This document shows positions 4,464-26,659 of a stretch of 64,000 nt of DNA, piece by piece. The notes beneath the pieces were generated by a model. That model saw only the letters and a program-made list of their open reading frames with translations. It searched no databases and was not told the origin of the DNA. Made by a program: the position numbers and the translations under genes. Source of the DNA: Lichina pygmaea (Eukaryota > Ascomycota > Lichinomycetes > Lichinales > Lichinaceae); NCBI GenBank assembly GCA_963422465.1, contig OY730170.1:1364001-1428000 (forward strand), read 5' to 3'. The first letter of the stretch is position 1, and each line of letters opens with the position of its first letter.

Positions 4464-4960
4464 TGTTACGGGCCGGGCCGGGTTCACACAGAAGGCGGCT
4501 CGGTCTGTTGCTTCGCAGGGCGGATTCTAGACAGGGACTCGGTAGAGGAATAGACAGGTGGGGTAACTCTCCTGTGCTATTGTCTCAGTACGATGGGTTC
4601 GTATTGTTTGTTCAGCCTGGAGAGCTAATCCCTCCGGGCCCTTTGGGGGGTCTTTATACAGATGCCCCAAGGGGGGGGGTCTCCTCGAGGGGTATCATCC
4701 TTTTGCGTGGACAAGCTCCTCGCTTAGCTCCTGCTTGTCCACCGGACGAGCTCCTCGCTTAGCTCCTGCTCATCCACCGGACGAGCTCCTCGCTTAGCTC
4801 CTGCTCGTCCACCGGACGAGCTCCTCGCTTAGCTCCTGCTCGTCCACCGGACGAGCTCCTCGCTTAGCTCCTGCTCGTCCACCGGATCGGTCGGATGTTG
4901 TTCCGCATGACTAACACTCCTCCCTCGCTTACCTGGGCTGTTCCGGCCTAGGCCTTAACA
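4464..4960 (-). repeat. Element A 3' LTR (497 bp)
   Basis: The ends are TGTTACGGG... and ...CCTTAACA. It contains five tandem copies of a unit of about 35 bp (about 4710-4885, core GTGGACAAGC and GAGCTAAGCGAGGAGC on the element strand) and a TATAAAG promoter box. Confidence 0.93.
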
Positions 4961-5021
4961 CTATCCTCTCCCTCCAAGGGTTCTGTCCCCAGATCCTTTT
5001 TGTTCCTGCTCCTCTTTTGTC

Positions 5022-5589
5022 ATGAACCAAAGCCAGACAACTCGAACTTGTCGTTGTGGTTTTCTCTCTTGTCGTATTAGCAAAATGGGCAAGGAATTGA
5101 AAATCACATGCGGTGCTTGTCGTCGCGACCACACCAAGTGTGTTGTGAGCTCCGCATCATCTTTTTGTTGTCGGTGTGTTGAGAAGGGTTGTCGCTGCAA
5201 TCTTCATCTCTCAGAATCAGAATGGAAGAAGATGGAACTTGAGCGCGAGCAGCTCAAGGCTCAGCTGCGGGAGACTGATGACCAATTGTCAAAGTTGCTT
5301 CCCCGGCAGATCCACCTCTGCTGGCAGCTGGGTTGTCTCTCACAGAAGGAGGCTGATGCCATCTGTCGTGAGCTGTCCGCCATCGAGGATCAGGAATCTC
5401 TTGATACTCCAGGAGGCTCTCCGTGTTATCTGCGAACGGAAGGCCAGTCAGGCTGCTGCTCCACCGTCCTTTGAGGACATCTTCTCTTCAGAGGCTTTGG
5501 CTTCTCTCAAGCTGTTGTCTCTGTCAGACCTGGTCGCTGCGGGTTTGCTTGGTGGTAATCCACCAGCTTCTGGTTCATCGCAGGGCTGA
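5022..5589 (+). other. Element A antisense ORF: Zn2Cys6 cluster plus coiled coil (fossil)
   Basis: This is an open stretch on the strand opposite to gag-pol, beginning 61 bp inside the 3' LTR and overlapping the chromodomain end tail-to-tail. Its N-terminal part has six cysteines spaced C-x2-C-x6-C-x8-C-x2-C-x6-C (CGACRRDHTKC, then CCRCVEKGCRC), the pattern of Gal4-type binuclear zinc clusters. A charged heptad-like segment (KKMELEREQLKAQL) follows, then a Ser/Leu-rich end finishing GSSQG. Related ORFs sit at the same place in elements B and C. The function is unknown; DNA binding or regulation is inference. As a part of a dead element it is broken here. Confidence 0.7.
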
Positions 5590-8500
5590 AGTTCTCAGTT
5601 GGTTCCCATGAATTTTCCTCTTCGTCAAATCCTAACCACTTCACCAGGTACTCAGTTTTCTGTCTGTTTCTTCGACTATCCAGGATCCTTTCAACATTGT
5701 ACTCTTCTTTGTCATCCTCGAAGTTCCATTCTGTCTCAATCTCTTTGTCGCTGGGTGCTGGTTCAAGCAGCAAGACATGGAATACTCAGTGTATCCTTGC
5801 TTTTTGTGGTAGTCTCAGTTGATAGTTGACTTTCCCAGTGCGCTTCTTGATTTTGAATAGTCTGATTCGTACGTGATCCAGCTTTTTGCTCAGTCACTTT
5901 GAGCGCAGGTTTTTTGTTGATAGGTAGACCTTATCCCCCCTTTCCAGGGTTGGTCCCTTCAACCTTTTGTTGTGTAATCAGCAGGCAGTGGTGTTCTGGG
6001 CACAGTTGATCATTGTTTTCATTATCTTGTGCATAGCAGCAAGTTTGCTAACATCAACAATATTGTCTCCTGCTGTTGCCTGCCATCAGAGGTTTCTTCC
6101 GTAGTTCACAAAGAATAGTGTTGTCCCTGTCACACTATGTTGCTGGTTGTTGTACGCAAACTGGGCTATTGGTAGCAGTTCCACCCAGTTATCCTGCTGG
6201 TGGTTGATGTAGTGTTGTAGATACTGCTCCATTGTCTGGTTTGTCTGCTCAGTTTATCTGTCAGTTTGTGGGTGGTAGGCTGTTGACATCCTTGTATCAA
6301 TGCCAAGTTGCCTTGTCCACATATTCCAGAATTTCGAGGTGAAGAGTTTGTCTTGATCTGAGATGATTGTCTTTGGTAGCCCTCGGTAGCTTACCAGCTC
6401 TCTGAGTAGGACACTCGCAAGTTTGTTCGCGGTTCCTGACTCTTTCCACAGGACCAGGTGGGTGTATTTGGTGAGCTTGTCAACAACCACCAAAATGCTA
6501 TCGTATACCACCTTTGTTGCTGGGTCTGTTGACTTTGGCAACTTGACCACAAAATCTATTGTGATAGTTTCCCATAGTGCCTCGGGTAGGTCTATTTGCT
6601 GTGCCTGCCCATAGGGCTTATGTCTTGATGGCCTGTTCTTCGCACACTGTTCACAGTTGTGAATGAACTCTGTCACCTTGCACTTCATTCTGTCAAAGTG
6701 GTAATTCCTTTGGATTTTCTCCAAGGTTTTATCTCACCCGGGGTGTCCGTGCAAAGGCCTGTCATGGTGCCTCCGGATCACCTCCTCTTGTGCTCTTTCT
6801 GGCACAATTTTCTTTTTGTTTGCTGTCTTGTGGCCAAGGGTAAGGAGTGGACTCTTTGTTTCTGTTGTTGCCAGTTGGGGTTGGGCATAGACCAAGGTTT
6901 GTCCTTTTGTCACTAGGATTGGGTGTTCCTCTGTTGTTTTCTCATCCATCAGGTCTGGTCACCTGCTGAGAGCGTCCGCTCGAGTATTTTCAGTGCTCTT
7001 CCGGTAGAGGATTTGGAAGTTGTATGATGCTAACAACTCTGCCCATCGAACTTGTCATCAGTTTAGCTTCTTTGTTGTTGTGAAGTAAGCTAAGTTCTTG
7101 TGGTCTGAGTACATGTCTACTGTGTATTTTGCCTCCTCCAAGTAAGGTCTCCATTCTTGGAATATGTCAACAATTGCTAGCAACTCTTTGTTGTGAACAT
7201 CGTACCTCAGTTCTGGGCCAGAGAACTTTCTTGATCGATACACGACAGGGTGTAAGTGGTTGTCAGCATCTGGTTGACACAAGCAGGATCCCAATGCTTG
7301 GTCTGAGGCATCAATTTCCAGAATGATCCTCTTCTCAGGATCAAATGATGCCAAAATAGGTGTGGAGATGAATTTATCCTTCAACTCCTGGAAGGCCGCT
7401 TGTTGGCTCTCCCCCCACCTGAAAGATTTGTTCTTTCTGGTTAACTCTGTCAAGGCTGCTGCTGTTCTTGAGTAGTCCTTGATGAATCGTCAGTAGAAGT
7501 TTGCAAATCCTAGGAAGAATTGTACTTCTTTGAGGTTTTTGGGTGTTGGCCAGTCTTGTACTGCTGCTGTTTTTGTGTTGTCCATTCAGATTCCTTCTGT
7601 TGTCAGGATCAACCCCAAATATTCCACTTCTTTTGTGTGGAAAACACTTTTATCAAGGCGTAACCTCATGCCTGCTTTCTGGAGCGCATGTAGGATTGTT
7701 TTGACATGCTGTTTATACTCCTCCAAGGTTCCATTGGTGTATACCAAGACATCGTTGATATAAGCGATGATAAATATGTCCAGGTATTGTTGGAGGACAG
7801 TGTTAATAAGTGATTGGAATGTCACTGGTGTATTTGTAAGGCTGAATAGCATCACAGTATACTTGTAGTGCCTGTACCTTGTACGAAAGTCTGTCTTCCA
7901 TTCTTCACTGTCTTTCATCCTAACCAGGTTGAAAGCATCTTGAATATTGAACTTGGTAAACTATTTGGCTTTTTGGATCCAGTCTTGGATTTCTGATATC
8001 AATAGCAGTGGGTAGCAGTTTTTCACTGTAATCACATTTAGCTGCTGATAATCAACACACAGTCGAAGTTTGCTGTCTTTCTTTGGCACAAACAATATTG
8101 GGTATCCAGCTGGTGATATTGAAGGTCTTATGAACCCTTTCGCTAGGTTCTTGTCCAGGTAGTCTCTCAGGGCCTCAAGCTCTTTTGCTGACAGAGTGTA
8201 GATAGGGCTGTGTGTGGGTTTTTTTCTGTCTTCTAGCAGAATCTTGTGGTCCCACTCCTGATGTTCTGGTAGCATCGTGATCACTGTTTCTTCAAACATC
8301 TCCTGGTATCTTTTATACTCACTTGGCAACTGCGGTGCCTGAGTCTTGCCCACGGCGTCTTGCGTAGTGCAAAGTTGTTGTGTTCGGGGTTTCATCCAGG
8401 CCACACAGGCCTGCCCGTGCTGGTGGTATTTCTTCCAGCGTGTCAGTGAGATTTCTTTAATTGTCACCCCTGGTTCTGATGTGACTAGTGTCTTATCTGG

Positions 8501-10349
8501 AAAGACTAGTTACCTTCTTCTCCAGTCAATCCTTGGGTTTTGTTTTTCCAACCACGGAAGTCCTAATATAACTTCATGTGGTATCCAGACCAAGTCGAAT
8601 TCCTCTGTTCTGATTGTCATGCTATGGACACTCAGTCTCAGGCTCTTGGTCTCCTTCATCACTTGTCCCTTGTCTTTGGAGAGTGGTGTTCTGTCCACTA
8701 CTGTCAACTGGTAGGAGTCTTTCTTGCCTTGGACTGGAACCTTGTTTCTTCTGGCAAAGCTTTCTGACATGAAGTTGCCAGTTGTACCAGAGTTGATCAT
8801 GGCCTTAGCCAACCACCCATTGACTCTGATCTTGATGTGAAAGTGCGGGCTGCAGGCTGTTGCGTCAAGACTCAGCTTGACTCCTTCCTCCCGGGGTGTT
8901 GTCTTGCCTGCTCTTCCGACCCCAGTTTTGAAGAGCACTGCTAGTTTTTTGAGCCGCCTAGGCCCTGGGCCTGATGCTCTACTGTGTGTTGTTTGCATCG
9001 TGTGGTGGTGCATTGTTCCCCCAGGTCTTGGTTGCAATCATCAGCAATGTCTCTGACCTGTGTGATGCTGAGGGTATTGTCAACCCATCGTGGCACTTGC
9101 GCCTCCCCTATTTCTGATAGGGTTGTGTCCTGTCGTCAAAGGACAGTTTTGTCAGGGACTGGTGGTGGCTGGGGTTCTTCGTCATCAACCTGTTCCTCCA
9201 TATAGCTGGTTGTGTCAAACTCAGAGATCAGGTTGTCCTCCCAGTGGATTCTGTCAACCTTCCTTCAGACCTTGTCAAAGTGGTCCAAGGTTTCTTGGAG
9301 TATGTTCTTGAGTTTTTCGGTGTGTTGTCAGAGGTTGTCCTCCTCTCTGAGGAGTGCTGCCTCAGGGTGATTGTGGGGCAGTGTGCCTTGGGGAGCCCTC
9401 TGGGGCTCCTCCATCTCCCTGTCTTTCCAGGCACTTGTGGTGTTCAACTACTTCCCTTTGCCCTTCTTGTTCTTCTTCTTGCTCCTGCAGTTCACCGCGA
9501 GGTGGCCCACTTTCTGACAGTTGTAACACTTCCGTGTCTCCTTCTTTTGTGGTTCCACTGCATCAATTTCCATGGGTACCAAGCTGTAGTTATCTTTGGC
9601 AGGTGTTGGCTTTTTCTTCACCTATGGTTTTGTCTGCTTGCCTCACTTCTCAAGCTCTCTCTTGAACTGTCAGTCGTCAATGCGAGCTGCAGTCTTGATC
9701 ATTTTGTAGAGCTCAGTTGGTCAGTCTCCTCACGCAATGTCATCCTTGACTTGTTCCTTGAGGCCTTGGTAGAATAGTGCTGTTAGTGCACTGTCCCCCC
9801 ACTGAGTCCTCACTGCTAGTTGTTGGAACTTCACCGCAAATTCCGATGCTGATCCAGTTTGCCGCAGTGCTTGGAGCTTTTGTTCCACATCTTTTTCCTT
9901 GTCAAGGATCCCAAACATCTTCCTCATGGCTGTCTTAAAGGTTTTCAAGCTTCCCATGACCTGTCAGGTATTATCTTCTTGCTCCTTGGGGTCTGCCTGA
10001 TTGTCTAGGTAATCCCTTAAGTAGATGTTGAACCAAGCGAAGGCTGGTCCTTCCAGGTAGGAGGCTGCAAACAGCACCTTCTCCTGGTCTGTCAGGAACT
10101 GGGCTGTGTTGAACCTGTAGTAGAGCTCCAGCTGTGAGAAGAACAACTCCAGTCCTCCCCTGGATCTATTGTACCTCTTCGGGGCACCTACTTTCAAGGG
10201 CTTCGGGGGTAGGTTAACAATAGATGCCACCTGGACAGCCTGGGCCTGAGCCGCCTGAGCAGCTTGGGCTTGGGCTGCCTGAGAAGGGGTAGGGCTTTGT
10301 GGATCCACCATTGTATCAAGTCAGTGTCCTGTATGTTAGAGGCTGAAAC

Positions 10350-10846
10350 TGTTACAGGCCAGGCCAGGTTCACACAGAAGGTGGCTTGGTCTGTTGCTTC
10401 GCAGGGTGGATTCTAGACAGGGACTCAGTAGAGGAATAGACAGGTGGGGTAACTCTCCTATACTATTGTCTCAGTACAATAGGTTCGTATTGTTTGTTCA
10501 GCCTGGAGAGCTAATCCCTCCGGGCCCTTTGGGGGGTCTTTATACAGATGCCCCAAGGGGGGGGGTCTCCTCAAGGGGTATCATCCTTTTGCGTGGACGA
10601 GCTCCTCACTTAGCTCCTGCTTGTCCACCAGACAAGCTCCTCGCTTAGCTCCTGCTTGTCCACCGGACAAGCTCCTCGCTTAGCTCCTGCTCGTCCACCG
10701 GACAAGCTCCTTGCTTAGCTCCTGCTCGTCCACCGGACAAGCTCCTCACTTAGCTCCTGCTTGTCCACCGGATCAGTCGGATGTTGTTCCGCATGACTAA
10801 CACTCCTCCCTCGCTTACCTGGGCTGTTCCGGCCTAGGCCTTAACA
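10350..10846 (-). repeat. Element A 5' LTR (497 bp)
   Basis: It has the same length and ends as the copy at 4464-4960 and also holds five units of the 35-bp repeat. Just inside it (10349 down to 10341 on the element strand) lies a candidate primer-binding site, GTTTCAGCC. Confidence 0.93.
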
Positions 10847-12400
10847 CCAGGGACTCGACACTTGCAAAGAAAGGCAGCCAGCCCAACCTTACCTGTACGT
10901 ATCTGTGTTAAGATACTGCTCTGCGCTTTGGAGAGGCCAGCTCGGAGCTGGAGAGTTGCCCGGTATGGCATCTTGTCCGGCTTCCAATTATCACCACCTC
11001 CGGGGGCTGGGTTGAGCAGTTGCACCTGCGGTTGGGGGCCCCCGTGGAGCTTGTGCCATCATTCCCAGCACTATTGTTCTGACAGCAGGCAGGCTTGCCA
11101 AACTGTCTGTGGGTGAGTGCCCGGGGGTGGGGTGGCTGCGGGGTGGCTGTCAGCCCACGGGGGCAGGCTGAGGCAGCCCTTGGTGGACTCCAGTGCCCGC
11201 TGGGGCCAGAGAATTGATTTGGCCCAGTGGTGCCGCGCTTGGCCCGGTGAGATATAGGCTTGACAGTGTTGGCCCGGGCGCTGGGCAAGTTGGCACTTGA
11301 GCTGTTCGCAGGCCTCCTGGATCTCTGCCTGGACTCCGGAGGCTTCCATCTGGGTGTGTGCCTGTAGTTGTAGCTGTGCCATGTGGGCCCAGAGTGGTGG
11401 GACTGCCACCTCACTCTCCAGTTGTTTCTGGCTGGTAGTCCTGAAGCCACTGGTGACTGCTTGGAGGCCGTGCTGTTGCTGTTGTTCCAGGACATCACTG
11501 ATCCAGTGTTGGTGTGCTGGTCTCAGGAGGCCATCCAACAGGGTCCACACTATCACTCTGTAAGTGATAACCAGGTGCACCACTGTGTTGTAGACCAGCC
11601 TTGCTTTGTCAAAGGTGGCTTCCCAGGTGGACCCCATGATGGTGGAGAGGGCATGGCTCTGCTGAGTCACCTGTTCCACTGTGTGTTTCACGTGGGGTCT
11701 CCAGCAGAGCTTCAAGTCCAGCACAATACCCAGTATGCAGAGGGTCAGCTGTGGAGCCTTGGTGATGCTCTCCAGGCTGACTCCTGTGGCCATGTTAAAC
11801 CTCTTTGGTGATCAAGTCAGGTGTATTAGTTTGTACTTGTGTGGGGTGAAGGTGGCTCTGTGGTGGTGGGCCCAGGTGATGCAGCTGGGGTGTACGTGCT
11901 CAAGAACCTGGCAGTTGCTCTCTGTGCTGCTGCCTACAACTAGAATGTTAACATTGTCCACAAAGCTGATGGCTGACACCTTTCCAGTTCCTTGGGCGCA
12001 GAAATCCACCAGGTCTTTATTGAAGAATAGGAACAGGATTGGTGAGACTGGGGACCCCTGTGGTATGCCTGTGGCCACCTGGTGGGTGTCGCTTTGCCAT
12101 CAGCCCAGGACCAGCAAGGTTCTGTGATCTGCCAAGAAGCTGGCTGTCCACTTGAGGAGTGCTGTTGGTATGCAGTCTCACCAGAGGATGTGCAGTAGCT
12201 GTTGGTGTGATACATTGGGGAAGGCTGCGGCCATGTCCAGGCTGAGCAGTGTGGCCACCTTGTTGTGGCCTTGACCCCATGCTGTGTGGATCTGTTCTGT
12301 CAGCAGCTCCAGGGCTGTGGTGGTGTTGTGTTGCCTGCGGCACCCATGTTGCACCTGGGGGAGCAGGTTGTAGTGTTCAGCAATGTAGTGGATCCTCCAA
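10847..12400 (-). pseudogene. LINE piece 2: reverse transcriptase core to pre-C-terminal region
   Basis: On the minus strand, from 12400 down, the RT motifs come in order: GCRRQHNTTTALELL, then MAAAFPNVSH, then GIPQGSPVSP, then the active-site box FVDN where (F/Y)xDD is expected, then the thumb and RNase H-like region, ending KVGLAAFLCKCRVPG. The order and wording match Tad1-clade fungal LINEs. The frame has several stops, and the loss of an active-site Asp is another sign of decay. It is bounded by element A (TSD CCAGG) and element B (TSD TCCAA). Confidence 0.88.
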
Positions 12401-12790
12401 TGTTAAGGCCTAGGCCGGAACAGCCCAGGTAAGCGAGGGAGGAGTGTTAGTCATACAGAACAACATCCGACCGATCCGGTGGACAAGCAAGAGCTAAGCG
12501 AGGAGCTCGTCTGGTGGACAAGCAGGAGCTAAGCGAGGAGCTTGTCCACGCAAAAGGATGATACCCCTCGAGGAGACCCCCCCCCTCGGGGCATCTGTAT
12601 AAAGACCCCCCAAAGAGCCCGGAGAGATTAGCTCTCCAGGCTGAACACAACACGCACACATCATACTGAGACAATAGTACAGAGGGAGTTACTTATCTGT
12701 CTATTTCTCTATCAAGTCCCTGTCTAGAATCTGCCCTGCGAAGTAACAGACTATACCAGTTTCTGTGTGAACCCAGCCCAGCCTTTAACA
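12401..12790 (+). repeat. Element B 5' LTR (390 bp)
   Basis: It runs from TGTTAAGG to CTTTAACA. It has only two copies of the 35-bp tandem unit, against four in the 3' copy, which explains the 70-bp length difference. A TATAAAG box is at 12598-12604. The candidate primer-binding site GTTTCAGCC follows at 12791-12799. Confidence 0.93.
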
Positions 12791-15613
12791 GTTTCAGCCT
12801 CTAACACATAGGACACTGACTTGATACGATGGTGGATCCATGAAGCTCTACCCCTTCTCAGGCAGCTCAAGCCCAAGCTGCTCAGACAGCTCAGGCCCAG
12901 GCTGTCCAGGCAGCACCTATTGTTAACCTACCCCTGAAGCCCTTGAAGGTAGGTGCCCTGAAAAGGTACAATAGATCCAGGGGAGGACTGGAGTTGTTCT
13001 TCTCACAACTGGAGCTCTACTATGAGTTCAACACAGCCCAGTTCCCAACAGACCAGGAGAAGGTGCTATTTGCAGCCTCCTACCTGGAAGGACCAGCCTT
13101 CGCTTGGTTCAACGTCTACTTAAGAGATTACCTAGACAATCAGGCAGACCCCAAGGAGTAAGAAGACAATACCCGACAGGTTATGGGAAGCTTGAAACCC
13201 TTTAAGATAGCTATGAGAAAGATGTTTGGGATCCTTGACAAGGAAAAGGATGTGGAACGAAAGCTCCAAGTACTGCGGCAAACTGGATCAGCATCAGAAT
13301 TTGCGGCAAAGTTCCAACAACTAGCAGTGAGGACCCAGTGAGGGGACAGTGCACTAACAGCACTATTCTACCAAGGCCTCAAGGAACAAGTCAAGGATAA
13401 CATCATGTGAGGAGACTGACCAACCAAGCTCTACAAAATGATCAAGACTGCAGCTCACATCAACAACCGACAGTTTGAGAGAGAGCTTGAGAAGTAAGGC
13501 AAGCAGACAAAACTATAGGTGAAGAAAAAGCTAACACCTGCCAAAGATAACTACGGCTTGGTACCCATGGAAATCAATGTGATGGAACCACAAAAGAAGG
13601 AGACACAGAAGTGTTACAACTGTCAGAAAGTGGGCTATCTTGCAGTGAACTGCAGGAGCAAGAAGAAGAACAAGAAGGGCAAAGGGAAGCAGTTGAACAC
13701 CATGAGTGCCTGGAAAGGCAGGGAGACAGAGGAGCCCCAGAGGGCCCCCCAAGGCACACTGCCCCACAATCACCCTGAGGCAGCACTCCTCAGAGAGGAG
13801 GACAACCTCTGACAACACACTGAAAAACTTGAGAACATGCTTCAGGAAACCTTGGATCACCTCAACAAGGTCCAAAGGAAGGTTGACAGAATCTATTGGA
13901 AGGAAGATCTGATCTCCGAGTTTGACACAACCAGCTATATGGAGGAACAGATTGATGACAAGGAAGCCCAGCCACCACTAGTCTCTGACAAACCTGTCCT
14001 TTGATGACAGGACACAACCCTATCAGAAATAGAGGAGACACAAGTGTCATGATGGGTTGACAATACCCTCAGCATCACACAGGTCAGAGACATCACCACA
14101 CAAGTGGACCTACACCAGGCTACAACAGCAGCCTGCGGACAACCTTATTGGAAGGTGTGCGAAGATAACCACTGCAAGGAACACCTTCTAGAGAAAAGAA
14201 AGAAGATGTGGTTCCCAGAGTCCAAGGTGGAAGCGTGATAGAATATACACATCCAAAGGGTCAACCCTGAACAAGACGATTGCAACCAAGATCTGTGGGA
14301 ATGATGCCTCACCACACAATGCAAACAACACGTGGTAGAGTGTCAGGCCCAGGGCCTAGGCAGCTCAAAAAACTAGCAGTGCTCTTCAAAACCAGGGTTG
14401 GAAGAGCAGGCAAGACAACACTCCGGGAGGAAGGAGTCAAGCCAAGCCTTGACGCAACAGCCTGCAGCCTGCACTTTCACATCAAGATCAGAGTCAATGG
14501 GTGGTTGGCTAAGGCCATGATCAACTCTGGTGTGACTGGCAACTTCATGTCAGAAAGCTTTGCCAGAAGAAACAAGGTTCCAGTCCAAGGCAAGAAAGAC
14601 CTCTACCAGTTGACAGTGGTGGACAGAACACCACTCTCCAAAGACGAGGGATAAGTGATGAAGGAGATTAAGAGTCTGAGACTGAGTGTCCATGGCATGA
14701 TGATTGGAACAGAGGAATTCGACTTGGTCTGAATACCACACAAAGTTATATTGGGACTTCCGTGGTTGGAAAAACAAAACCCAAGGATTGACTGGAGAAG
14801 AAGGTAACTAGTCTTTCCAGATAAGACACTGGTCATGTCAGAACCAGGGGTGACGATTAAAGAAATCTCACTGACACACTGGAAGAAATACCACTGGCAT
14901 AGGCAGACCTGTGTGGCCTGGATGAAACCCCAAACACAACAACTTTGCACTACGCAAGACACTGTAGGCAAGACTCAGGCACTGCAGTTGCCAAGTGAGT
15001 ATAAAGAATACCAGGAGATGTTCGAAGAAACAGTGATCACGACACTACCGGAACATCAGGAGTGGGACCACAAGATTCCACTGGAAGACAGAAAAAAACC
15101 CGCACACAGCCCTATCTACACTCTGTCAGCAAAAGAGCTTGAGGCCCTGAGAGACTACCTGGACAAGAACCTAGTGAAAGGGTTCATAAGACCTTCAATA
15201 TCACCAGCTAGATACCCAATATTGTTTGTGCCAAAGAAAGACAGCAAACTTCAACTGTGTGTTGATTATCAGCAGCTAAATGTGATTACAGTGAAAAACT
15301 GCTACCCACTGCCATTGATATCAGAAATCCAAGACTGGATCCAAAAAGCCAAATAGTTTACCAAGTTCAATATTCAAGATGCTTTCAACCTGGTTAGGAT
15401 GAAAGACAGTGAAGAATGGAAGACAGACTTTTGTACAAGGTACAGGCACTACAAGTATACTGTGATGCTATTCAGCCTTACGAATACACCAGTGACATTC
15501 CAATCACTTATTAACACTGTCCTCTGACAATACCTGAACATATTTGTCACCGCTTATATCAACAATGTCTTGGTATACACCAATGGAACCTTGGAGGAGT
15601 ATAAACAGCATGT

Positions 15614-16151
15614 TTGCCAAAAACCTCACTACAACAACCTAAAGCTCTACAAAGAGCTACAGAAAGCTGAGGCAAGTCTACTACTGCAAACCAGAACTGG
15701 GAGAATTGGTCTAGCAAGTTTTCTTTTCAGAGCTGGAGTCCCTGACTTTCCTACCCCCCTATGCATGTGTGGTCAAGCAGAAGAGACAGTAAAGCATATC
15801 ACCTCTTCATGCTCTCTCTACTCAAGTCAAAGACAACATGCTCTCTTTAACCCCCAAGATTTCACTACTATTATTTCAAACCCAGAGCTTCTACAGAAGT
15901 TTCTGTACTGGTTTATGTCTTTGAAAAGACTAAACCAATTTAATCTGGCTTTCAAACTTCACTATTCACACTCCAACATCTAGAAGCTTTTCCTACCAGA
16001 CACTACAAGATTTCCTTTTGCTACACTTTCTAGTCACCTCCCTGTCTTCAGTTTTTATTCCTTTAAAGGTTTTCTGAAGAAGTTCACTATTAGCTGGAAG
16101 ATCTGCATGGCTGTAAAGCTACAAACAGTGTAAGAATCAAATCAAAAAAAA
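15614..16151 (+). mobile_element. Second LINE: 5'-truncated Tad1-like tail inserted in element B
   Basis: About 540 bp interrupt the RT region of element B; element A lacks this insert at the same place. The insert is flanked by the 13-bp duplication ATAAACAGCATGT (15601-15613 and 16152-16164) and ends in an A-rich tail (aatcaaatcaaaaaaaa). It encodes the LINE C-terminus, with RTGRIGLASFLFRAGVPDFP followed by C-x-C-x8-H-x4-C (CMCGQAEETVKHITSSC), a stop near 15983 and a 3' UTR. It resembles piece 1 of the outer LINE but is clearly a different, diverged copy. Severe 5' truncation is usual for LINE insertions. Confidence 0.9.
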
Positions 16152-18278
16152 ATAAACAGCATGTCAAAACAATCCTACATGCACTCCAGAAAGCAGGCAT
16201 GAGGTTACACCTTGATAAAAGTGTTTTCCACACAAAAGAAGTGGAATATTTGGGGTTGATCCTGACAACAGAAGGAATCCGAATAGACAACACAAAGATG
16301 GCAGCAGTACAAGACTGGCCAACACCCAAAAACCTCAAAGAAGTACAATCCTTCCTAGGATTTGCAAACTTCTACTGACAATTTATCAAGGACTACTCAA
16401 GAACAGCAGTAGTCTTGACAGAGTTAACCAGAAAGAACAAATCTTTCAGGTGGGGGGAGAGCCAACAAGTGGCCTTCCAGGAGTTGAAGAATAAATTCAT
16501 CTCCACACCTATTTTGGCATTATTTGATCCTGAGAAGAGGATTATTATGGAAACTGATGCCTCAGACCAAGTATTGGGATCCTGCTTGTGTCAACCAGAC
16601 GCTGACAACCACTTACACCCTGTCATGTACTGATCAAGAAAGTTCTCTGGCCCAGAACTGAGGTATGATGTTCACAACAAAAAGTTGCTAGCAATTGTCG
16701 ATGTATTCCAAGAATGGAGGCCTTACTTGGAGGGGGCAAAATACATAGTAGACATGTACTCGGACCACAAGAACTTAGCTTACTTCACAACAACAAAGAA
16801 GCTAAACCAACAACAAGTTTGATTGGCAGAATTGTTGGCATCATACAACTTCCAAATCCTCTACTGGAAGAGCACTGAAAATGCTCAAGCAGACACACTC
16901 AGCAGGCGACCAGACCTGATGGATGAGAAAACAACAGAGGAACACCCAATCCTAGTGACAAAAGGACAAACTCTGGTCTATGCCCAACCCCAACTGGCAA
17001 CAACTGAAACAAAGAGTCCACTCCTTACCCTTGGCCACAAGACAGCAAACAAAAAGAAAATTGTGCCAGAAAGAGCACAAGAGGAGGTGATCCGGAGGCA
17101 CCATGACAGGCCTTTGCACGGACACCCCGGGTGAGATAAAACCTTGGAGAAAATCCAAAGGAATTACCACTTTGACAGAATGAAGTGCAAGGTGACAGAG
17201 TTCATTCACAACTGTGAACAGTGTGCGAAGAACAGGCCATCAAGACATAAGCCCTATGGGCAGGCACAGCAAATAGACCTACCCGAGGCACTATGGGAAA
17301 CTATCACAATAGATTTTGTGGTCAAGTTGCCAAAGTCAACAGACCCAGCAACAAAGGTGGTATACGATAGCATTTTGGTGGTTGTTGACAAGCTCACCAA
17401 ATACACCCACCTGGTCCTGTGGAAAGAGTCAGGAACCGCGAACAAACTTGCGAGTGTCCTACTCAGAGAGCTGGTAAGCTACCGAGGGCTACCAAAGACA
17501 ATCATCTCAGATCAAGACAAACTCTTCACCTCGAAATTCTGGAATATGTGGACAAGGCAACTTGGCATTGATACAAGGATGTCAACAGCCTACCACCCAC
17601 AAACTGACAGATAAACTGAGCAGACAAACCAGACAATAGAGCAGTATCTACAACACTACATCAACCACCAGCAGGATAACTGGGTGGAACTGCTACCAAT
17701 AGCCCAGTTTGCGTACAACAACCAGCAACATAGTGTGACAGGGACAACACTATTCTTTGTGAACTACGGAAGAAACCTCTGATGGCAGGCAACAGCAGGA
17801 GACAATATTGTTGATGTTAGCAAACTTGCTGCTATGCACAAGATAATGAAAACAATGATCAACTGTGCCCAGAACACCACTGCCTGCTGATTACACAACA
17901 AAAGGTTGAAGGGACCAACCCTGGAAAGGGGGGATAAGGTCTACCTATCAACAAAAAACCTGCGCTCAAAGTGACTGAGCAAAAAGCTGGATCACGTACG
18001 AATCAGACTATTCAAAATCAAGAAGCGCACTGGGAAAGTCAACTATCAACTGAGACTACCACAAAAAGCAAGGATACACTGAGTATTCCATGTCTTGCTG
18101 CTTGAACCAGCACCCAGCGACACAGAGATCAAGATAGAATGGAACTTCAAGGATAATGAAGAAGAGTACAATATTGAAAAGATCCTGGATAGTCGAAGAA
18201 ACAGACAGAAAACTGAGTACCTGGTGAAGTGGTTAGGATTTGACAAAGAGGAGAATTTGTGGGAACCAACCGAGAACT

Positions 18279-18851
18279 TCAGCTCTGCGATGAACTAGAA
18301 GCTGGTGGATTACCACCAAGCAAACCCACAGTGACCAGGTCTGACAGGGACAACAGCTCAAGAGAAGCCAAAGTCTCTGAAGAGAAGACATCCTCAAAGG
18401 ACAGCGGAGCAGCAGCCTGACTGGCCTCCTGTTCGTGGATAACACGGAGAGCCTCTTGTTCCTGAGCATCAAGAGACTCTTGATCCTTGATAGCTGACAG
18501 CTCATAACAGATGGCATCAGCCTCCTTCTGTGAGAGACAACCCAGCTGTTGACAGAGGCAGATCTGCCAGGGAAGCAACTTTGACAATTGGTCATCAGTC
18601 TTCCACAGCTGAGCCTTGAGCTGCTCACACTCAAGTTCCATCTTCTTCTATTCTGATTCTGAGAGATGAAGGTTATAGCAACAACCCTTCTCAACACACC
18701 AACAACAAAAAGATGATGCAGAGCTCACGACACACTTGGCGTGGTCGTGACAACAAGCACCGCGTGTGATTTTTGATTCCTTGCCTATTTTGCCAATACG
18801 ACAAGAAAGAAAACTGCGACAACAAGTTTGAGTTGTCTGGCCTTGGTTCAT
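18279..18851 (-). other. Element B antisense ORF: Zn2Cys6 cluster plus coiled coil (fossil)
   Basis: It is the counterpart of the ORF at 5022-5589 in element A, on the strand opposite to gag-pol and starting 61 bp inside the 3' LTR. It keeps the cysteine-rich N-terminus and the charged coiled-coil segment (MELECEQLKAQL) and ends in SSSQS. It is partly degraded. Confidence 0.65.
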
Positions 18852-18912
18852 GACAAAAGAGGAGCAGGAACAAAAAAGATCTGGGGACAGAACTCTTGGA
18901 GGAAGAGGATAA

Positions 18913-19372
18913 TGTTAAGGCCTAGGCTGGAACAGCCCAGGTAAGTGAGGGAGGAGTGTTAGTCATACAGAACAACATCTGACTGATCTGGTGGACAAGC
19001 AAGAGCTAAGCAAGGAGCTTGTCCGGTGGATAAGCAGGAGCTAAGCAAGGAGCTTGTCCGGTGGACAAGCAGGAGCTAAGCGAGGAGCTTGTCTGGTGGA
19101 CAAGCAGGAGCTAAGTGAGAAGCTTGTCCATGCAAAAGGATGATACCCCTTGAGGAGACCCCCCCCCTTGGGGCATCTGTATAAAGACCCCCCAAAGGGC
19201 CCAGAGGGATTAGCTCTCCAGACTGAACACAACACGCACACATCGTACTGAGACAATAGTACAGAGAGAGTTACTTATCTTTCTATTTCTCTATCAAGTC
19301 TCTGTCTAGAATCTGCCCTGCGAAGCAACAGACTGTACTGGTTTCTGTGTGAACCCGGCCCGGCCTTTAACA
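18913..19372 (+). repeat. Element B 3' LTR (460 bp)
   Basis: It has the same ends as the 5' copy and four tandem 35-bp units. Confidence 0.93.
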
Positions 19373-19851
19373 TCCAAGTGACAATAGCTTCCAGTGCTTT
19401 CCCAAGGGTGTTGAGAAAGGTGATTGGGTGCCAGACCTTCAGCTCTTTGTAGTCTGGTTTGGCTGGCTTGTGTAGGGCAATTGTTGTTGCTACCCTGAAG
19501 CAGTGGGGGTGGTGGCCTTGCTGCAGGCATGTGTTGAACAAGTTGTGTAGGTAGTCTGCAGTGTCTTTGTATAGGAGCTGGAGAATGTGGTGTAGGATGC
19601 CATCGGGGCCTGGTGCTTTGTCTGGTGCTGGGTTGAAGACAGCCTCTTTCAGTTCTGCTGCTGTGATAGGTGGGGTGTCTTCAACCAGTGCTGGATAGTT
19701 ATAGTTGTGGGTATCTGTAAGGTCAGCAGGCTGGGGCTCTGGGAAGAAGACATATTGTAGGGTGGCCACCTTGGCCCCAGCCTTGGTCTGCAGGGTTCCT
19801 GTAAGTGGGTCTTGGAGAGGGGGGAACTGGGGGGCTGGGGGGGGGGGGGGG
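19373..19851 (-). pseudogene. LINE piece 3: N-terminal reverse transcriptase
   Basis: From 19851 down the minus strand encodes the lead-in to RT: VATLQYVFFPEPQPADLTD, then APDKAPGPDGILHHILQ (RT motif 0/1 region), ATTIALHKPAKPDY and WHPITFLNTLGKALEAIV, which joins piece 2 across element B. A G-rich stretch on the plus strand (19831-19851) borders element C. Confidence 0.88.
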
Positions 19852-20398
19852 TGTTATAACCCAGGAGGAACACAGTCTTTATATACTCACAGGAAGCAGC
19901 AGACAGGATACTGGACAGAAGTACCAGGCAGTGTGACACGGGAACCAGTCACGTGACCGGCAAGACAAACCAGGGGGTGCTCGCCGCAGCATGCATATGC
20001 ACGAACAAGTGAGCAAAGTGAGCAGAGCTCACCCAGCTCACCGCAGCGGGCATGAACAAGTGAGCAAAGTGAGCAGAGCTCACCCAGCTTGCTGCAGCGT
20101 GCATGAACAAGTGAGCAAAGTGAGCAGAGCTCACTGTGCTCACAAACTGAGCACTATATAGTCTGGCGATAGTTCCCTTATAGAATGATCATCTTCAACT
20201 CATGTTGTGATCCAGACAACTAGATCTACTTCAATACAATCCTTTTGTACAAAGCCATTGATCAGGTGTCACCACCACCACGTTCCACCAAACCTCTTCG
20301 CACTCCTTGACACTCCTCTCCTGCAAGAACCAACCCACCTTCCACATCTCACCCTTAATCCTATACTCAGTTAGGACAGCACGGTACAGACTGCAACA
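19852..20398 (+). repeat. Element C 5' LTR (547 bp)
   Basis: It runs from TGTTATAACC to CTGCAACA. U3 holds three copies of a unit of about 60 bp (core GAACAAGTGAGCAAAGTGAG, 20000-20135). A TATA box is at about 20155-20161. The candidate primer-binding site CTTTGAAGA starts at 20399. Confidence 0.88.
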
Positions 20399-23300
20399 CT
20401 TTGAAGACCCTCAAGGATGAGTACCTCAGGAGTAACCAACCCCAACTTCCCAGATGGAAAGATTAGTGTTGCCAAGCCAGACCTGTTCTACAGTGAAAGA
20501 AATAAGGTTGATGACTGGCTCATGCAACTCCAAGTCTACTTTCAATTCTAACCAGAGACAAAGCTGCCTAAGGAAAAGTGGTCCCTCTTCACAACCACTT
20601 ACATAAGAGGCAATGCTTATTGATGGATGAAGCCCTATGTCAACAAAAATCTCTCAGGAAACAGAGACCACAACAGCACAACAGAATGGATGATGAAATA
20701 GACGTGATTCAAGGACAAGATCAAAAAGATCCTTGGACTATCTAACAAAGACAAAGTGGCTATACGAATGATCTAGCACATCAAACAACAACACTCAGCC
20801 GCAGAGTACACCACGCAGTTCAAACAATACTCAGTACTGACTGACTGGGATGACAACACCCTGATAGTCATGTACTGACGTGGACTCAAGGAAAACATGA
20901 AGGATGAAATCACCTTTGACAGATGAGCAGTCGACACACTGGACAAACTCATCACACAAGCAATCAACATTGATGACAAACTATTCAAGCGAGTGATGGA
21001 GAAACACCATGACAGAGGATACAGCCACCCCACATGGCATGTGAGCAACCACTACAAGCTGTCTAACAAGGCACCGCCACATGACCCATATAGCTATGCA
21101 CCCATGGAACTGGATGCAGTCCACCACAAGGGAAGGTTCATGAAGGGAAGGAACAACAAAAAGAGGAAAGCACTGAAGTGCTATGCCTGTGGCAAGCTAG
21201 GCCACATAGTGAAAGACTGTTGTTTAAAGAACAAGGTGCACTGACAGCAACTTAATACGCTTGATGGAGACTGGAATGTCATCAAGCCAGAGGACCCACC
21301 AGGAGAGACTCAGCTATCCCTCAAACAATAAGACAACTACGATCAGACATTGGAAGCAGCCCACCAACTGGCAACATCAGGAGGCAAGGACCTACCAGAA
21401 CAGACAGGTCAGGACAAGGGACAGGAGCCCTTAACCACCTCTGATGGGGACTGAGACAAACCCACGTCTATCAAAGAAGAAATACCACAAGGAAGCTATG
21501 CTTACAGCATGGACCTGCGAAATCTACAGCATGGCGAACTACAGTGGAGGTTTTGCACAAAGCACTACTGCACCTACCACAAACAACTATAAAGGTATGG
21601 AGGACATTCACTCTACCACACCACCTGCCACAAGCATTGGGTCAATTGCGAGAAGGATGTGTGTGAGATCCATCTTTGGGACAAACACCAACACACCACA
21701 TTCCCCGGGCACACACATGATTGGCACAAACACCTCATGTTCCTACAGCAAGGCAACAACCACAACTGCTACGTCAACAATTGGTAGTACTGCCTCAAGC
21801 CTGGATGTGACAAGTATCAGCAAGACAAATTCATGAACAGATTCCTCAGAACTGATGGGAATAGCTGGACCCATTGCCCAGTCAGTGGAAAGACACTTCA
21901 ATCAGGAAAAGACTAAACTCCCTTGTCAAGAGGTGACATTGGGAGCTTAACAACATGACCCCTAGCAACACAAAGCACCTGCGATTGCCTGTGTCACTAC
22001 ACGCCAACACACCAGTACAGACATACGCACTTGTTGACTCTGGAGCCAGTGGAAACTACATCTCAAGACAACTTTACGACACCCTTGGCACTGGAAGGAG
22101 ACGCAAGCAGTAGCCCTATCAGCTCACGATGGCAAATGGACAGACAGAGCTAGTCTGCCATAAGACGCAGCCAATGGAAATGGTTACCGGACACCATGCT
22201 GAAAGGATCCACCTTGATATTGTCGAGTTGGCCACTCAGGATATCTATTTGGGGATGCCTTGGCTAAAGAAGCACAACCCAGTTGTTAACTGGAGGACAG
22301 GAGTACTCATGTTTAGGAACTGCACTAACAACGCAGCTCGGACCTGTTACCAGCCGCAGAAGGTGTGGACAGATAAGGGAAGGAGTCCTCAGTGGAACCT
22401 CACTGACAGAAAGGACAACTCTCAAGAGAAGAGGTCTGCCTTGACAGGCACACCCCAGAACCAGGTGGCCAAACAGTCAGAGATAAAGAGAGAAGAAGTT
22501 GTTAACTCTCTGGAGATCTCTGAAGAGTACTGACCTGAGTATGATAACCTCTTTCAGGAAGAGACAACAACAGCAGTGTTGCCTAAGCACCAACCTTGGG
22601 ATCATGAGATCAAGTTGCAACCAGGGACAGAGCCAGGATTTGGACCAATTTACCAGTTATCAGAGAAAGAGCTCCAAGTACTTTGTGAGTACCTGGAGGA
22701 AAACCTGAAAAAGGGTTTTATTCAAGAATCTCAATTGCCAGCAGGATACCCGATACTATTTGCACCAAAGAAAGATGGAAGTCTTCAACTTTGTGTAGAT
22801 TACAGGAAACTCAACAACATTACCATCAAGAACTGATATCTGTTGCCAAATGTGAACAAATTGCGAGACAGAATCAGCCAAGCTACAATCTTTACCAAGC
22901 TGGACTTGAAAGGAACATACAACCTGATACACATGAAAGAAGGAGAAGAATGGAAGACAGTCTTCAGAACCTGATACAGACACTACAAGTATCTGGTTAT
23001 GCTATTCAGACTCACGAACACACCAGCAACATGTCAAGCATTGATCAACAACATCATCAGAGCACACCTGGACCAAACAGCTATCACCTACCTGGACAAC
23101 ATTCTTGTCTACTCGAACACACAACAGGAACATACCAAACATGTGAAGGATGTTCTACGATGCCTACAACAGGCAGGGCTCAAGCTCAACCCAAAGAAAT
23201 GCAAGTTCAACAAACCGGAAGTTGAATTTCTCAGATACATCATAGAGATCGAAGAGATCAAGATTGACTCTGAGAAAATCAAAGTGATTCAGCAATAGCC

Positions 23301-25195
23301 AACACTGACATCAGTTAAGGAAGTACAAGCCTTCCTAGGATTTGCCAACTTCAACTGACAGTTCATTAAGAACTACTCACAGATGGCAACACCACTGACA
23401 GAACTCACAAAGAAGGACGTGGAGTACTGGTGGACGGAGAGACAACAAAAAGTATTCCAACAGCTCAAGGACACTTGCGCCAAGGAACCAGTTCTCCTCA
23501 ACTTCAAGACAGGCCAACCAACACAAATCAAGACAGACACTTCAGATCAGGCAGTGGGAGCATGTCTATGCCAACAGGCAGATGGCAAGTGGCACCCAGT
23601 TGCCTACTACTCACGAAAAATGACACAAGCGGAACAAAACTATGATATCCACGACAAAGAGCTACTGGCAGTTGTCAACGCACTTGAACACTGGAGAGTG
23701 TACGCGGAAAGTAGTTCTGAACTCACTGTTCTCACAGACCACAAGAATCTGACAACATTCACAACAACCAAGAAGCTGAACAGACAGCAAGTCAGATGGG
23801 CTGAACTCCTAGGGCAACACAAGTTCAAGATCTTGTACACCCCTGGACAAGACAATAGGAGAGCAGACACACTAAGCTGACGAAAAGACCACATGGAAGA
23901 TGATGAACACCAAGGAACAATCTTACAGCAGGACCAGCAAGGAAATCTGGTGCCTCAACCACAGATCAACAAGCTCACGGCAGAAGACACTGAAGAACTA
24001 ATAAGGAACTACCACAATAATCCAGTATATAGTCACCCAGGAATCTCCAAGACCACAGACCTTATCCAACAGGCAGGGAACAATGTCATTAACCTCTGAC
24101 AACATGTCACAAACTACATCAGCAAGTGTCTACTATACAAGAAAAACAAACATGGAAGACATAAGCTATACGGAGAAGGACACCCGAACACAATACTGAG
24201 AGGCCCATGGGAAGACATGTCAATAGACTTCATCACAAAGCTACCCAAGTCCAAAGACCCAGTCACAGGAATCACTTACGACTTGATTATGGTGATAGTG
24301 GACAGATTCACAAAATATCTAATAGCAGTACTATTCAAGGAGACCCACACAGCAGAACAGTTGGGACACCTCTTACTGGACAGATTGGTCAGAGACCACG
24401 GAGTTCTGATCATGATCATTACAGACAGAGACAAACTCTTCACATCCAACTACTGGAAGACAATCAGTGCAGCCATGGGAACAAAACCCAAAATATCTAC
24501 GGCCTATCACCCATGAACTGACAGCCAGACAGAGCAAGCAAACCAAGTCCTGGAGACTTACTTACAGCATTACATCAACCAGACCCACAGCAATTGGGTA
24601 CAGTTATTACCGGTGGCACAGCTGGCAATCAACCAGCACAGATCAGACTCAACAAAGGAATCACTATTTTTTGCTAATTTTGGACAACATGTGAACATCG
24701 GGATGCCAAGCAGAGCTTCACCAAACACGGAGAAAGCACTCCAACACGACAAGCTCCTACAACAAACACACACGATGATGAGGCACTACCTTCAAGAGAC
24801 CTCAGAAAGAATGCAATGTCAAATAGATAAGAAATCGAAAATGGCACCTCAGCTAAAGAAGGGGGATAAAGTCTACCTTGTCACAAGAAATTGGAAAACA
24901 AAGAAACCAAGAACAAAGAAACTGGACTATGTCAAGGTCAGACTATTTTCAGTCAGAGAAAAAACTGGACCAGTCAACGTCAGACTGCGACTACCGAGAG
25001 ACGCTCGGGTACACCCAAACTTTCACATCTCAATGATCGAATTAGCCGACCAGAGCACACCCTTGCAGGAAACATTTCATTACCAACCAGAGGAAGAACA
25101 GGAATTCAAGGCTGAACAGATCCTGAAGAGAAAAGGTCAGCGATACCTTGCCAAGTGGAAAAACTACCCAGACTCGGAAAATACCTGGGAACCAC

Positions 25196-25700
25196 TCAGG
25201 AACCTTGTGAACTGCCAGCTCCTCCTGCAGCAGTTCTGGCAGAAGCAGGACTGAACAGCTCAGCCTGCAGTGCGGACACGTCAATGACTGTCGCCGACAA
25301 GTCTTCACCATCCACCTCCATTTCAGCAACAAGGCACTGGAGCTTCTTCTTTGCTCGACCCTCAGCACCTTCAAGAACCTTTCGCTTTCGGGACACACAA
25401 GCCTGCAGCTTGGCAAGCTGCTCAACAAGAGCATCCCGCTTGGCCTCATCAACAGCCAAATCCTCACAAAGGTTATCTCAAGTCATGTTCAGTGACTCCC
25501 AAGAAAGTGACACACAGGACTTCCCACAACAAGTGCATTCAGCGCACTTCAACTTATCGTTGTTGTCAGACATTCGGAAGCAGGGCTTGTGGTTCAAAAC
25601 ACAGAAGTCACACAGAGCAAGCGACACAAAGTTATGATCACAGATCTGGGCTGCCAGTTAGTTTTGGTAAGCAGAGGCACATGATTTTGCAGACATACTC
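25196..25700 (-). other. Element C antisense ORF: six-cysteine cluster plus coiled coil (fossil)
   Basis: It runs against gag-pol from about 40 bp inside the 3' LTR to the chromodomain end. It shows C-x2-C-x6-C (CDFCVLNHKPC), an 11-residue gap, then C-x2-C-x6-C (CAECTCCGKSC), followed by a charged segment (LVEQLAKLQACVSRKRKVLE) and an end reading GAGSSQGS, similar to the GSSQG end in element A. Position, cysteine spacing and C-terminus all match the A/B antisense ORFs although the overall sequence has diverged. Confidence 0.65.
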
Positions 25701-25740: not shown

Positions 25741-26247
25741 TGTTACGACCCAGGGGAGGGGAGCCACTCATTATAGGCAATCAGGCTGCGGGCCAGGCAA
25801 GAGGACACCATGGAAGTCAAGTGACCAACCAACAAGGGGTCACGTGACTGTCAAGACACACACGGGAGTCTTGACGCAGGATGCATGAAGTGTCAAGACA
25901 ATCTCACCAGTCTCGACGCAGGATGCATGAAGCATCAAGACAATCTCACCAGTCTCGACGTCAAGACTGTCAAGACAATCTTGATTGTCTTGACAGGCCA
26001 GCACTATATAGTCCGGTGATAGTTCCCTTATGGAACGATCGTCTTCAACTCATGTTGTGATCCAGACAACTAGATCTACTTCAATACAATCCTTTTGTAC
26101 GAAGCCATTGATCAGGTGTCACCACCACCACATTCCACCAAACCCCTTCGCGCTCCTTGACACTCCTCTCCTGCGAGAACCAACCCGCCTTCCACCTCTC
26201 GCCCTAATCCTATACTCGGATAGGACAGTACGGTACGGACCGCAACA
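25741..26247 (+). repeat. Element C 3' LTR (507 bp)
   Basis: It runs from TGTTACGACC to CCGCAACA. From GCACTATATAG onward it matches the 5' LTR closely, but its U3 carries a different tandem repeat (core GTCTCGACGCAGGATGCATG, 25870-25960) and only weak similarity elsewhere. Confidence 0.88.
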
Positions 26248-26659
26248 CAACTACTCCCAGTGGTCTGCTGGCTGGCAGGTGATTACCCAGGGGGTGAGTG
26301 CTGCAGACATGGAGGTGAGGTCAATAGTACTCTCCAGAGAGTGTGCTCTCCATGTGATGGTGCCCAGAGGTAGGGTGGGGTGAAGGCCTGTTTCCACAAC
26401 CATGTCAAGAAGCTTGTCCACCACTGTGTGTTGTGTGAGGCATCAGTGGCCTCCCCAAGATGGGTGGTGTAGGTTGAAGTCTCCCACCACTACATGCAGC
26501 CTGTCAGGGGTGGCTTGAAGGTGAGCTGCCAGCTTGTCGATCACCGGCACTTCCATCGCTGTTCGGTGGCGGGAGGAGAGGTTGTAGACGTTGTGTATCT
26601 GGACAGTGGCCGGGGCATCCCCGCACATGGTGTGCAGAGAGAGCGTGGTGATGTCGGGT
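26248..26659 (-). pseudogene. LINE piece 4: end of the apurinic-type endonuclease domain
   Basis: From 26659 down the minus strand gives DITTLSLHT, VQIHNVYNLSS, VVVGDFNLHHPSWGG (the endonuclease GDFN-xHHP-x-WG motif), STIDLTSMSAAL and TCQPADHWE. The SDH motif that normally follows is lost at the element C border. The left limit of the domain is missing because the LINE is 5'-truncated. At least one frame change is present after HHPSWGG. Confidence 0.88.

Follow-up and report, generated by a model that had tools for sequence, protein, structure and literature searches.

Background

Antisense genes at the 3' end of long terminal repeat (LTR) retrotransposons have precedents in fungi and in plants. 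The brtn gene of Boty-like elements was reportedly described by Zhao et al. 2011 (Virology 417:248). Three sources describe brtn as an additional antisense gene of the Boty-like Ty3/gypsy elements of Botrytis cinerea, placed after pol and before the 3' LTR (PMC8365987, PMC7264820, PMC4227169). Plants carry the aORF-3R genes, among them Grande gene23, RIRE2, Retand TRP28 and PvRetro13, and the role of antisense genes in LTR retrotransposons is called unknown in a review and an article (PMC7264820, PMC11963269). In this study a 64,000-nucleotide stretch of the Lichina pygmaea genome (GCA_963422465.1, contig OY730170.1, positions 1,364,001 to 1,428,000; referred to as the window) was analysed. 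It contains three Ty3/gypsy elements, A on the minus strand and B and C on the plus strand, each with an antisense gene just inside its 3' LTR. Comparison with relatives across the genome indicated that this gene and the adjoining promoter stretch have been traded as if they were a matched switch and target.

Compared by description, the gene resembles brtn in being an extra antisense gene that a fungal Ty3/gypsy element carries between pol and its 3' LTR. An earlier reading of the window made from its letters alone (the sequence-only reading) knew of no described fungal counterpart, a view that is not supported. The likeness to brtn is one of position; the descriptions of brtn in these sources mention no zinc cluster, U3 array or exchange. 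The plant genes have the same orientation and location, and TRP28 is a suspected DNA binder; however, TRP28 is described as restricted to flowering plants, whereas the gene reported here is of a predicted Zn2Cys6 type and its arrays lie in the U3 of a chromodomain element. A literature search, in which long result lists were covered in part, turned up neither an antisense gene of Zn2Cys6 type nor a case in which an antisense gene had been exchanged together with U3. The arrangement is already known from brtn and the plant aORF-3R genes, while for the zinc-cluster identity and the U3 exchange no record in print was found.

Purifying selection on the antisense gene

The host genome (32.5 Mb, 8 contigs) was searched with the A and C antisense proteins, which gave 336 and 514 candidate matches, respectively; 150 of each were scored and many were stop-free. 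The genome holds hundreds of copies, many of them intact, which belong to four or more subfamilies (A, A', C and C' were recognised), and in many of these copies the antisense open reading frame (ORF) again lies between pol and the 3' LTR. In the A' subfamily, 53 of the 61 matches with at least 85% identity to the A' protein P0024 had no stop (150 of 291 candidates scored). The C' subfamily is that of P0139, and eight copies of it were read. Intact proteins are 190 (A), 176 (A') and 166 (C and C') amino acids long. Since the overlap with pol, stop included, is confined to the last 164 bp of the gene in A, 146 bp in A' and 59 bp in C, most of the antisense gene lies outside pol.

Selection, which the sequence-only reading had thought implied, was borne out when synonymous and non-synonymous change was compared outside the pol overlap: the antisense frame was conserved in intact relatives and change was strongly biased to synonymous sites. 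The ratio of non-synonymous to synonymous divergence (dN/dS) was 0.107, 0.115, 0.097 and 0.073 in four C/C' pairs, values that are only approximate because synonymous sites are near saturation (proportion differing, pS, 0.68-0.73), and 0.15-0.25 in six A/A' pairs. Bootstrap estimates of pN/pS, the corresponding ratio of proportions, were 0.25 (0.18-0.33) for C/C' and 0.33 (0.23-0.46) for A/A', and dN/dS against the related L041 was 0.11 for C and 0.23 for C'. When all six frames of the C/C' pairs were compared, the antisense frame alone was stop-free and the other five had 2-19 stop positions; four of these five gave dN/dS above 1. In L005/L029, the A/A' pair tested in all frames, the five other frames held 2-8 stop positions.

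A sense-strand gene in the same region was considered and rejected. A sense frame is open in C past the pol stop, yet the frame on that strand with a low apparent dN/dS in the C/C' pairs (0.17-0.21) has 6-8 stop positions, and its low ratio is taken to reflect the antisense frame by way of the wobble positions.

When the copies of each family were compared with one another, terminal branches carried changes that looked near neutral, and CpG changes were many. Pooled non-CpG changes were more often synonymous on internal branches (46 synonymous, 31 non-synonymous) than on terminal branches (85 and 127; p = 0.0034), as determined with 7 A, 32 A', 31 C and 8 C' copies (L001 was left out for a gap). 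C' alone likewise gave more selection on internal branches, for CpG changes (p = 0.002). Taken together, it is virtually certain that the antisense ORF is a coding gene under purifying selection.

Stops in A and C copies were mostly TGA, the pattern expected from CpG decay of CGA codons; A' copies had few stops, and these were TAG or TAA. Older, stop-bearing copies with 58-66% identity to P0024 and an open frame of 194 suggest at least one further A-like cassette type. A third C-like antisense gene type, 78% identical to P0139, was observed at L041:1-1500; it adjoins an apparent inverted LTR (by eye), and the locus looks rearranged.

Three protein-database searches returned 74, 64 and 189 matches at E≤1 (120 of the 189 listed), with identity down to 40%. 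The only named source among the matches listed was a Watsoniomyces obsoletus metagenome-assembled genome (P0130). Another relative, P0078, had no high-identity copy in the host genome (57-66% among 104 matches) and aligns with the C locus across the stretch upstream of the ATG and into the start of the LTR; it therefore probably sits at the same place in another genome. A pattern search of IMG/VR contigs gave 92 matches, with no relative among them.

Predicted zinc-cluster fold of the protein

Zn2Cys6 proteins (PF00172) follow the spacing C-x2-C-x6-C-x5..12-C-x2-C-x6..8-C. The antisense proteins A (C-x2-C-x6-C-x8-C-x2-C-x6-C) and C (the same, but with x11) both satisfy this rule. The Gal4-like spacing claimed earlier for all three window elements thus holds for A and C, but not for B, which retains four of the six cysteines (the first is R and the sixth Y). 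In alignment A4, which has 20 proteins, each of the six cysteine columns was fully or almost fully conserved (≥90%). The A and C clades have only 23-25% protein identity, in agreement with the earlier view that A/B and C are different families; the six cysteines and the tryptophan that follows are kept, and profile comparison of the clades gave a probability of 55% (E 1.2e-4).

Zn_clus was the Pfam family matched by most members, with 7/20 in alignment A4 (best E 0.00076) and 5/22 in the C clade (best E 0.049). A search of PDB sequences with A4 found GAL4, LAC9, PUT3 and HAP1 at E 0.02-0.55 among 16 matches; with the C-clade alignment A3 none of these four was among the three matches, and an NCBIfam scan gave nothing meaningful. 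The AlphaFold model of P0024 (mean pLDDT 76.7) has short helices at residues 29-33 and 48-53 in the cysteine region, followed by a long helix at 63-132; block pLDDT was 84-88 at residues 21-60 and 94-97 at 71-120, inside the long helix. The tail past this helix has many acidic and bulky hydrophobic residues (by eye). When the model was searched with Foldseek, all nine rows at E≤10 were zinc-cluster proteins by title or recall; Pho7, LAC9, HAP1 and PUT3 were so titled, and AlcR and a CBF3 chain presumably belong to the same group. Similarly, all 16 entries listed by VIA-align, which realigns Foldseek's own 29 chains, were zinc-cluster proteins by title or recall (HAP1, Leu3, PPR1, PUT3, GAL4, Pho7 and LAC9). 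Each of the structural matches is weak, and the zinc-cluster fold of the antisense protein is a prediction, though a highly probable one.

Exchange of the chromodomain, antisense gene and U3

The features of the three window elements are as follows.

4464-4961, minus strand: 3' LTR of element A (direct repeats)
4709-4886: U3 array in the 3' LTR of element A, 35-bp unit, 5.1 copies
5022-5589, plus strand: antisense gene of element A, A type, frameshifted
6254-6724, minus strand: pol fragment of element A, integrase core, pol-1 backbone (Pfam)
10350-10847, minus strand: 5' LTR of element A (direct repeats)
10595-10772: the same U3 array of element A, in its 5' LTR
12401-12790, plus strand: 5' LTR of element B, with array at 12478-12546
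18279-18851, minus strand: antisense gene of element B, A type, with one in-frame stop and without the first and sixth cysteines
18913-19372, plus strand: 3' LTR of element B, with array at 18990-19129
19852-20399, plus strand: 5' LTR of element C, C'-type U3, with 51-bp array at 19999-20134 (low edge set by eye, high edge bounded by BLAST match)
24613-25254, plus strand: 3' end of element C pol, Tf2-1-like SH3 and chromodomain (Pfam)
25196-25696, minus strand: antisense gene of element C, C type
25741-26249, plus strand: 3' LTR of element C, C-type U3, with 42-bp array at 25867-25960 (high edge bounded by BLAST match)

As first noticed from the letters, each antisense ORF begins a short way inside the 3' LTR, with 60 bp (A), 61 bp (B) and 44 bp (C) between LTR and ATG, and all three are broken. 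In A the frame opens at 5022 and closes after 150 codons with a stop whose last base is 5474; the ORF of B has one in-frame stop, and that of C has two. The C frame starts at 25696, four bases from the start at 25700 given previously (25700-25196), which was out of frame. The ends GSSQG (A) and GSSQGS (C) are similar, as had been reported, but the GSSQG at 5589 is in another frame of A; the shared GSSQ sits in DNA that codes on both strands and was rejected as independent evidence, being weak alone because it overlaps pol. The pol of element C, whose last bases overlap the antisense gene, ends in a chromodomain (PF00385, E 2.4e-13, within 24613-25254), which places the element among the chromoviruses; in intact A relatives the chromodomain was read by eye.

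Copies with A and A' genes fell into three classes. Class I combines the backbone pol-1 and R-U5-1 with an A gene and A U3 (L001, which is window element A, L002, L003, L004, L006 and window element B). Class II has pol-2 and R-U5-2 with the A gene and A U3 (L005, L007 and L008), and class III has pol-2 and R-U5-2 with the A' gene and A' U3, as seen in 32/32 A' copies read. Between class II and A' copies, synonymous divergence (dS) was 0.105-0.113 in pol and 0.95-1.34 in the adjoining antisense gene. U3 type tracked gene type in 9/9 distinct A copies, 32/32 A' copies and 30/31 C copies. An A-type U3 suspected at the A' locus L038 was rejected, as the match lies 487-652 bp upstream of the gene, past the U3 of L038 itself; in each of the 32 A' copies, the U3 that lies within 520 bp of the gene is of A' type.

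The limits of the exchanged block were located by fixed differences, counted from the antisense ATG in 3/3 class II, 20/32 class III and 4/6 class I copies. Classes II and III had 61 at 300-699 and none at 700-1349; classes II and I had 6 at 300-449, none at 450-649 and 90 at 650-1349. The LTR side (3, 32 and 4 copies; gaps scored as differences; beyond about +175 is flank) gave the reciprocal pattern. Relative to the motif CTGTATA, 17 sites distinguished classes II and III in the interval -39 to +32, with no differences from +33 on, whereas classes II and I had no differences up to +50 and many from there on (+51). The left A/A' junction therefore lies at +33 to +50, that is, 33-50 bp below the sense TATA, where R would be expected to begin and transcription to start. 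On the pol side, the junctions fall where the chromodomain starts, at 688 in A and 595 in C.

Consistent with these results, C and C' copies were 94-96% identical in pol (dS 0.10-0.20), as C copies are to one another (90-98%, mean 94%), and 95-97% identical from the TATA to U5. The antisense gene had dS of at least 1.8, the U3s shared only 50-bp BLAST matches, and the chromodomain part was intermediate (dS 0.63-0.74). In 20/31 C and 7/8 C' copies (L079, which diverges downstream, was left out), compared over two pol pieces, the stretch 0-599 held 117 fixed differences; the remainder of the first piece, up to 690, held none, and 690-1890 held 4.

In a tree of pol 850-1380 the A and A' copies were intermixed (4 label changes), whereas in the antisense-ORF tree they separated (1 label change, support 0.44). 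The case for exchange rests on near-identity and fixed differences and not on trees. These results showed that the pol chromodomain, the antisense gene and U3 form a block that has been exchanged as one unit.

Because the A/A' LTR junction falls where R should begin, as strand transfer predicts, the exchange is likely to have arisen by recombination during reverse transcription. Minus-strand strong-stop DNA from one packaged RNA would transfer, at R, onto a second RNA at its 3' end; reverse transcriptase would then copy U3, the antisense gene and the chromodomain and switch template back at the chromodomain start, so that regulator and U3 would land together on another gag-pol and R-U5 backbone. 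First-strand transfer from one packaged RNA to another seems to have left a natural record in the reciprocal A/A' junctions. Recombination between LTR-family members in bursts has a reported precedent (PMC5668417).

Element C is itself a hybrid, with a C'-type U3 array in its 5' LTR and a C-type array in its 3' LTR. Since normal retrotransposition yields identical U3s, it probably recombined after insertion.

Repeat arrays in the U3

Tandem repeats lie above the sense TATA in every U3, with units of 35 bp (A), 69 bp (A'), 42 bp (C) and 50-51 bp (C'), and inverted half-sites are present in all four array types. In element A the half-sites are GGACGAGC...GCTCGTCC, inverted. The C' core, (GTGAGC-N3)2(GCTCAC-N3)2, occurs 821 times in the genome compared to none for a reversed control, a number expected because C' is a repeat family. 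A CGAG core common to all arrays was considered and rejected; the arrays share two 4-mers (CACC/GGTG) when 2.7 would be expected.

Variation was compared in 43 A, 64 A', 90 C and 26 C' array units. Non-CpG positions varied at 0/11 (A), 2/23 (A'), 2/10 (C) and 4/22 (C') within the arms, and at 2/16, 3/14, 11/26 and 4/9, respectively, outside them. When pooled, the arms varied less than the remainder (8/66 versus 20/65, p = 0.011; 4/44 versus 16/56, p = 0.022, when C' was omitted), p values that are indicative only because the units share ancestry.

Function of the antisense gene

In the preferred interpretation, which was given about an even chance, the antisense gene codes for a DNA-binding protein that regulates the element itself and is matched to the element's U3. 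The gene would be transcribed from U3 in the direction opposite to gag-pol, and its product is predicted to have a Zn2Cys6 cluster of Gal4 type with a long helix after it. The protein, probably as a dimer, would bind the inverted half-sites repeated in tandem in U3, immediately upstream of the sense TATA, and would in this way set the element's own transcription. An activator is tentatively favoured over a repressor, as the array occupies a place like that of an upstream activating sequence and the protein has the acidic and bulky hydrophobic tail. The presence of the U3 arrays, and the fact that U3 and gene were exchanged jointly, make such a regulation of the LTR somewhat more credible.

Several results weigh against this interpretation. 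With U3 only 44-61 bp from the gene, joint inheritance is possibly mere linkage. In shuffles of single units, P for the longest arm was 0.16, 0.018, 0.40 and 0.24 and P for coverage was 0.02, 0.06, 0.25 and 0.01 (A, A', C and C', respectively), and a k-mer test found no half-site common to the four units beyond chance. Zn_clus scores of P0024 (14.9 bits) and L005 (16.4 bits) were below the gathering cut-off of 21, and the intact C protein L018 had no Zn_clus match in Pfam even at E 5. Foldseek E-values were all at least 0.09, although weak structural scores are expected since the domain is only about 35 residues long; the fold model covers the A' protein P0024 alone, and heptad periodicity was significant in two of four proteins. 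Internal and terminal branches did not differ significantly in A' alone or in C alone. The R-U5 tree parted A' from all A copies (1 change, support 0.91), class II R-U5 being 96-97% identical to A' and still outside it, and the two C' pol pieces formed their own branch, although their distance from C is no greater than the distances among the C copies themselves.

Other explanations were weighed against the same evidence. The protein may be a nuclear accessory factor for integration or chromatin targeting, a partner of the chromodomain that does not act at the LTR promoter. The exchanged block starts at the chromodomain in both clades, so that gene and chromodomain travel together, and some plant antisense ORF products are described as nuclear (PMC7264820); such a role is nevertheless unlikely, as it leaves the place of U3 in the block and the lower half-site variation unexplained. 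It is more improbable still that the protein targets host genes or host silencing instead of its own LTR. A DNA-binding domain could act anywhere, and heavy CpG-type decay, with stops that are mostly TGA, makes silencing pressure plausible, but family-specific U3 arrays beside each gene subtype point to the element itself. Antisense RNA control has been discussed for retrotransposons (PMC7264820); the view that the RNA alone matters, through double-stranded RNA or interference, with an incidental ORF, is contradicted by dN/dS of 0.07-0.25 confined to the antisense frame and by the six conserved cysteines, and deserves very little credence.

A further explanation overlaps these readings, and its likelihood was judged apart from them: the exchange may be a neutral by-product of reverse transcription, uninformative on the matching of regulator and target, with the gene keeping a DNA-related function. 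Strand transfer gives a U3/R junction automatically, and recombination in bursts of LTR families has been described (PMC5668417). In both clades the pol-side junction falls where the chromodomain begins, and the arrays resemble binding sites; these points speak against neutrality, but this account is still a serious, if somewhat doubtful, possibility.

The autoregulator reading can be extended by analogy. Interchangeable cassettes, each of a chromodomain, a zinc-cluster regulator and a U3 operator array, might switch the regulatory identity of an element and thereby free its backbone from the control of copies already resident, or from cross-talk with them, as in phages that swap their immunity regions; this is rather unlikely as it stands. 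If true, the near-intact A' family would represent a recent amplification following a cassette switch (53/61 stop-free; 32/32 with one pol backbone and the A' U3). With a DNA-binding-type domain, a nearby candidate array, strong purifying selection and natural swaps in one system, the role of an antisense gene becomes directly testable.

Other features of the loci

Fragments of LINE-like (non-LTR) reverse transcriptase were observed by eye beside or between the gypsy elements, at 11071-11793, 19275-19769 and L003:2466-3419, and an integrase of another gypsy family was read by eye at L002:17-451. Host genes adjoin the elements: electron transfer flavoprotein alpha at 26895-28072 (PF00766 and PF01012 in 27272-28072) and RRG7 (PF10356) at 29832-30725.

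Comparison with known systems

The bZIP regulator HBZ of HTLV-1 is likewise the product of an antisense gene that a retroelement carries at its 3' end. The parallel drawn in the sequence-only reading holds for the antisense position, and in both cases the product would be a regulator of DNA-binding type, here possibly of the LTR; it does not extend to bZIP, which was absent from the families listed in the Pfam scans (25 of 27 listed in the C-clade scan). In lambdoid phages, immunity regions are units in which a regulator and its operator are swapped together between otherwise similar genomes. The exchanged block would work in a like manner, but the two are not relatives. Compared to Gal4, HAP1, Leu3 and PUT3, the antisense protein is small and element-borne, with no established CGG half-site and with scores below the Pfam cut-off where scored; it resembles them in its six-cysteine spacing, its predicted fold, the helix that follows and the inverted half-sites that are its candidate targets.

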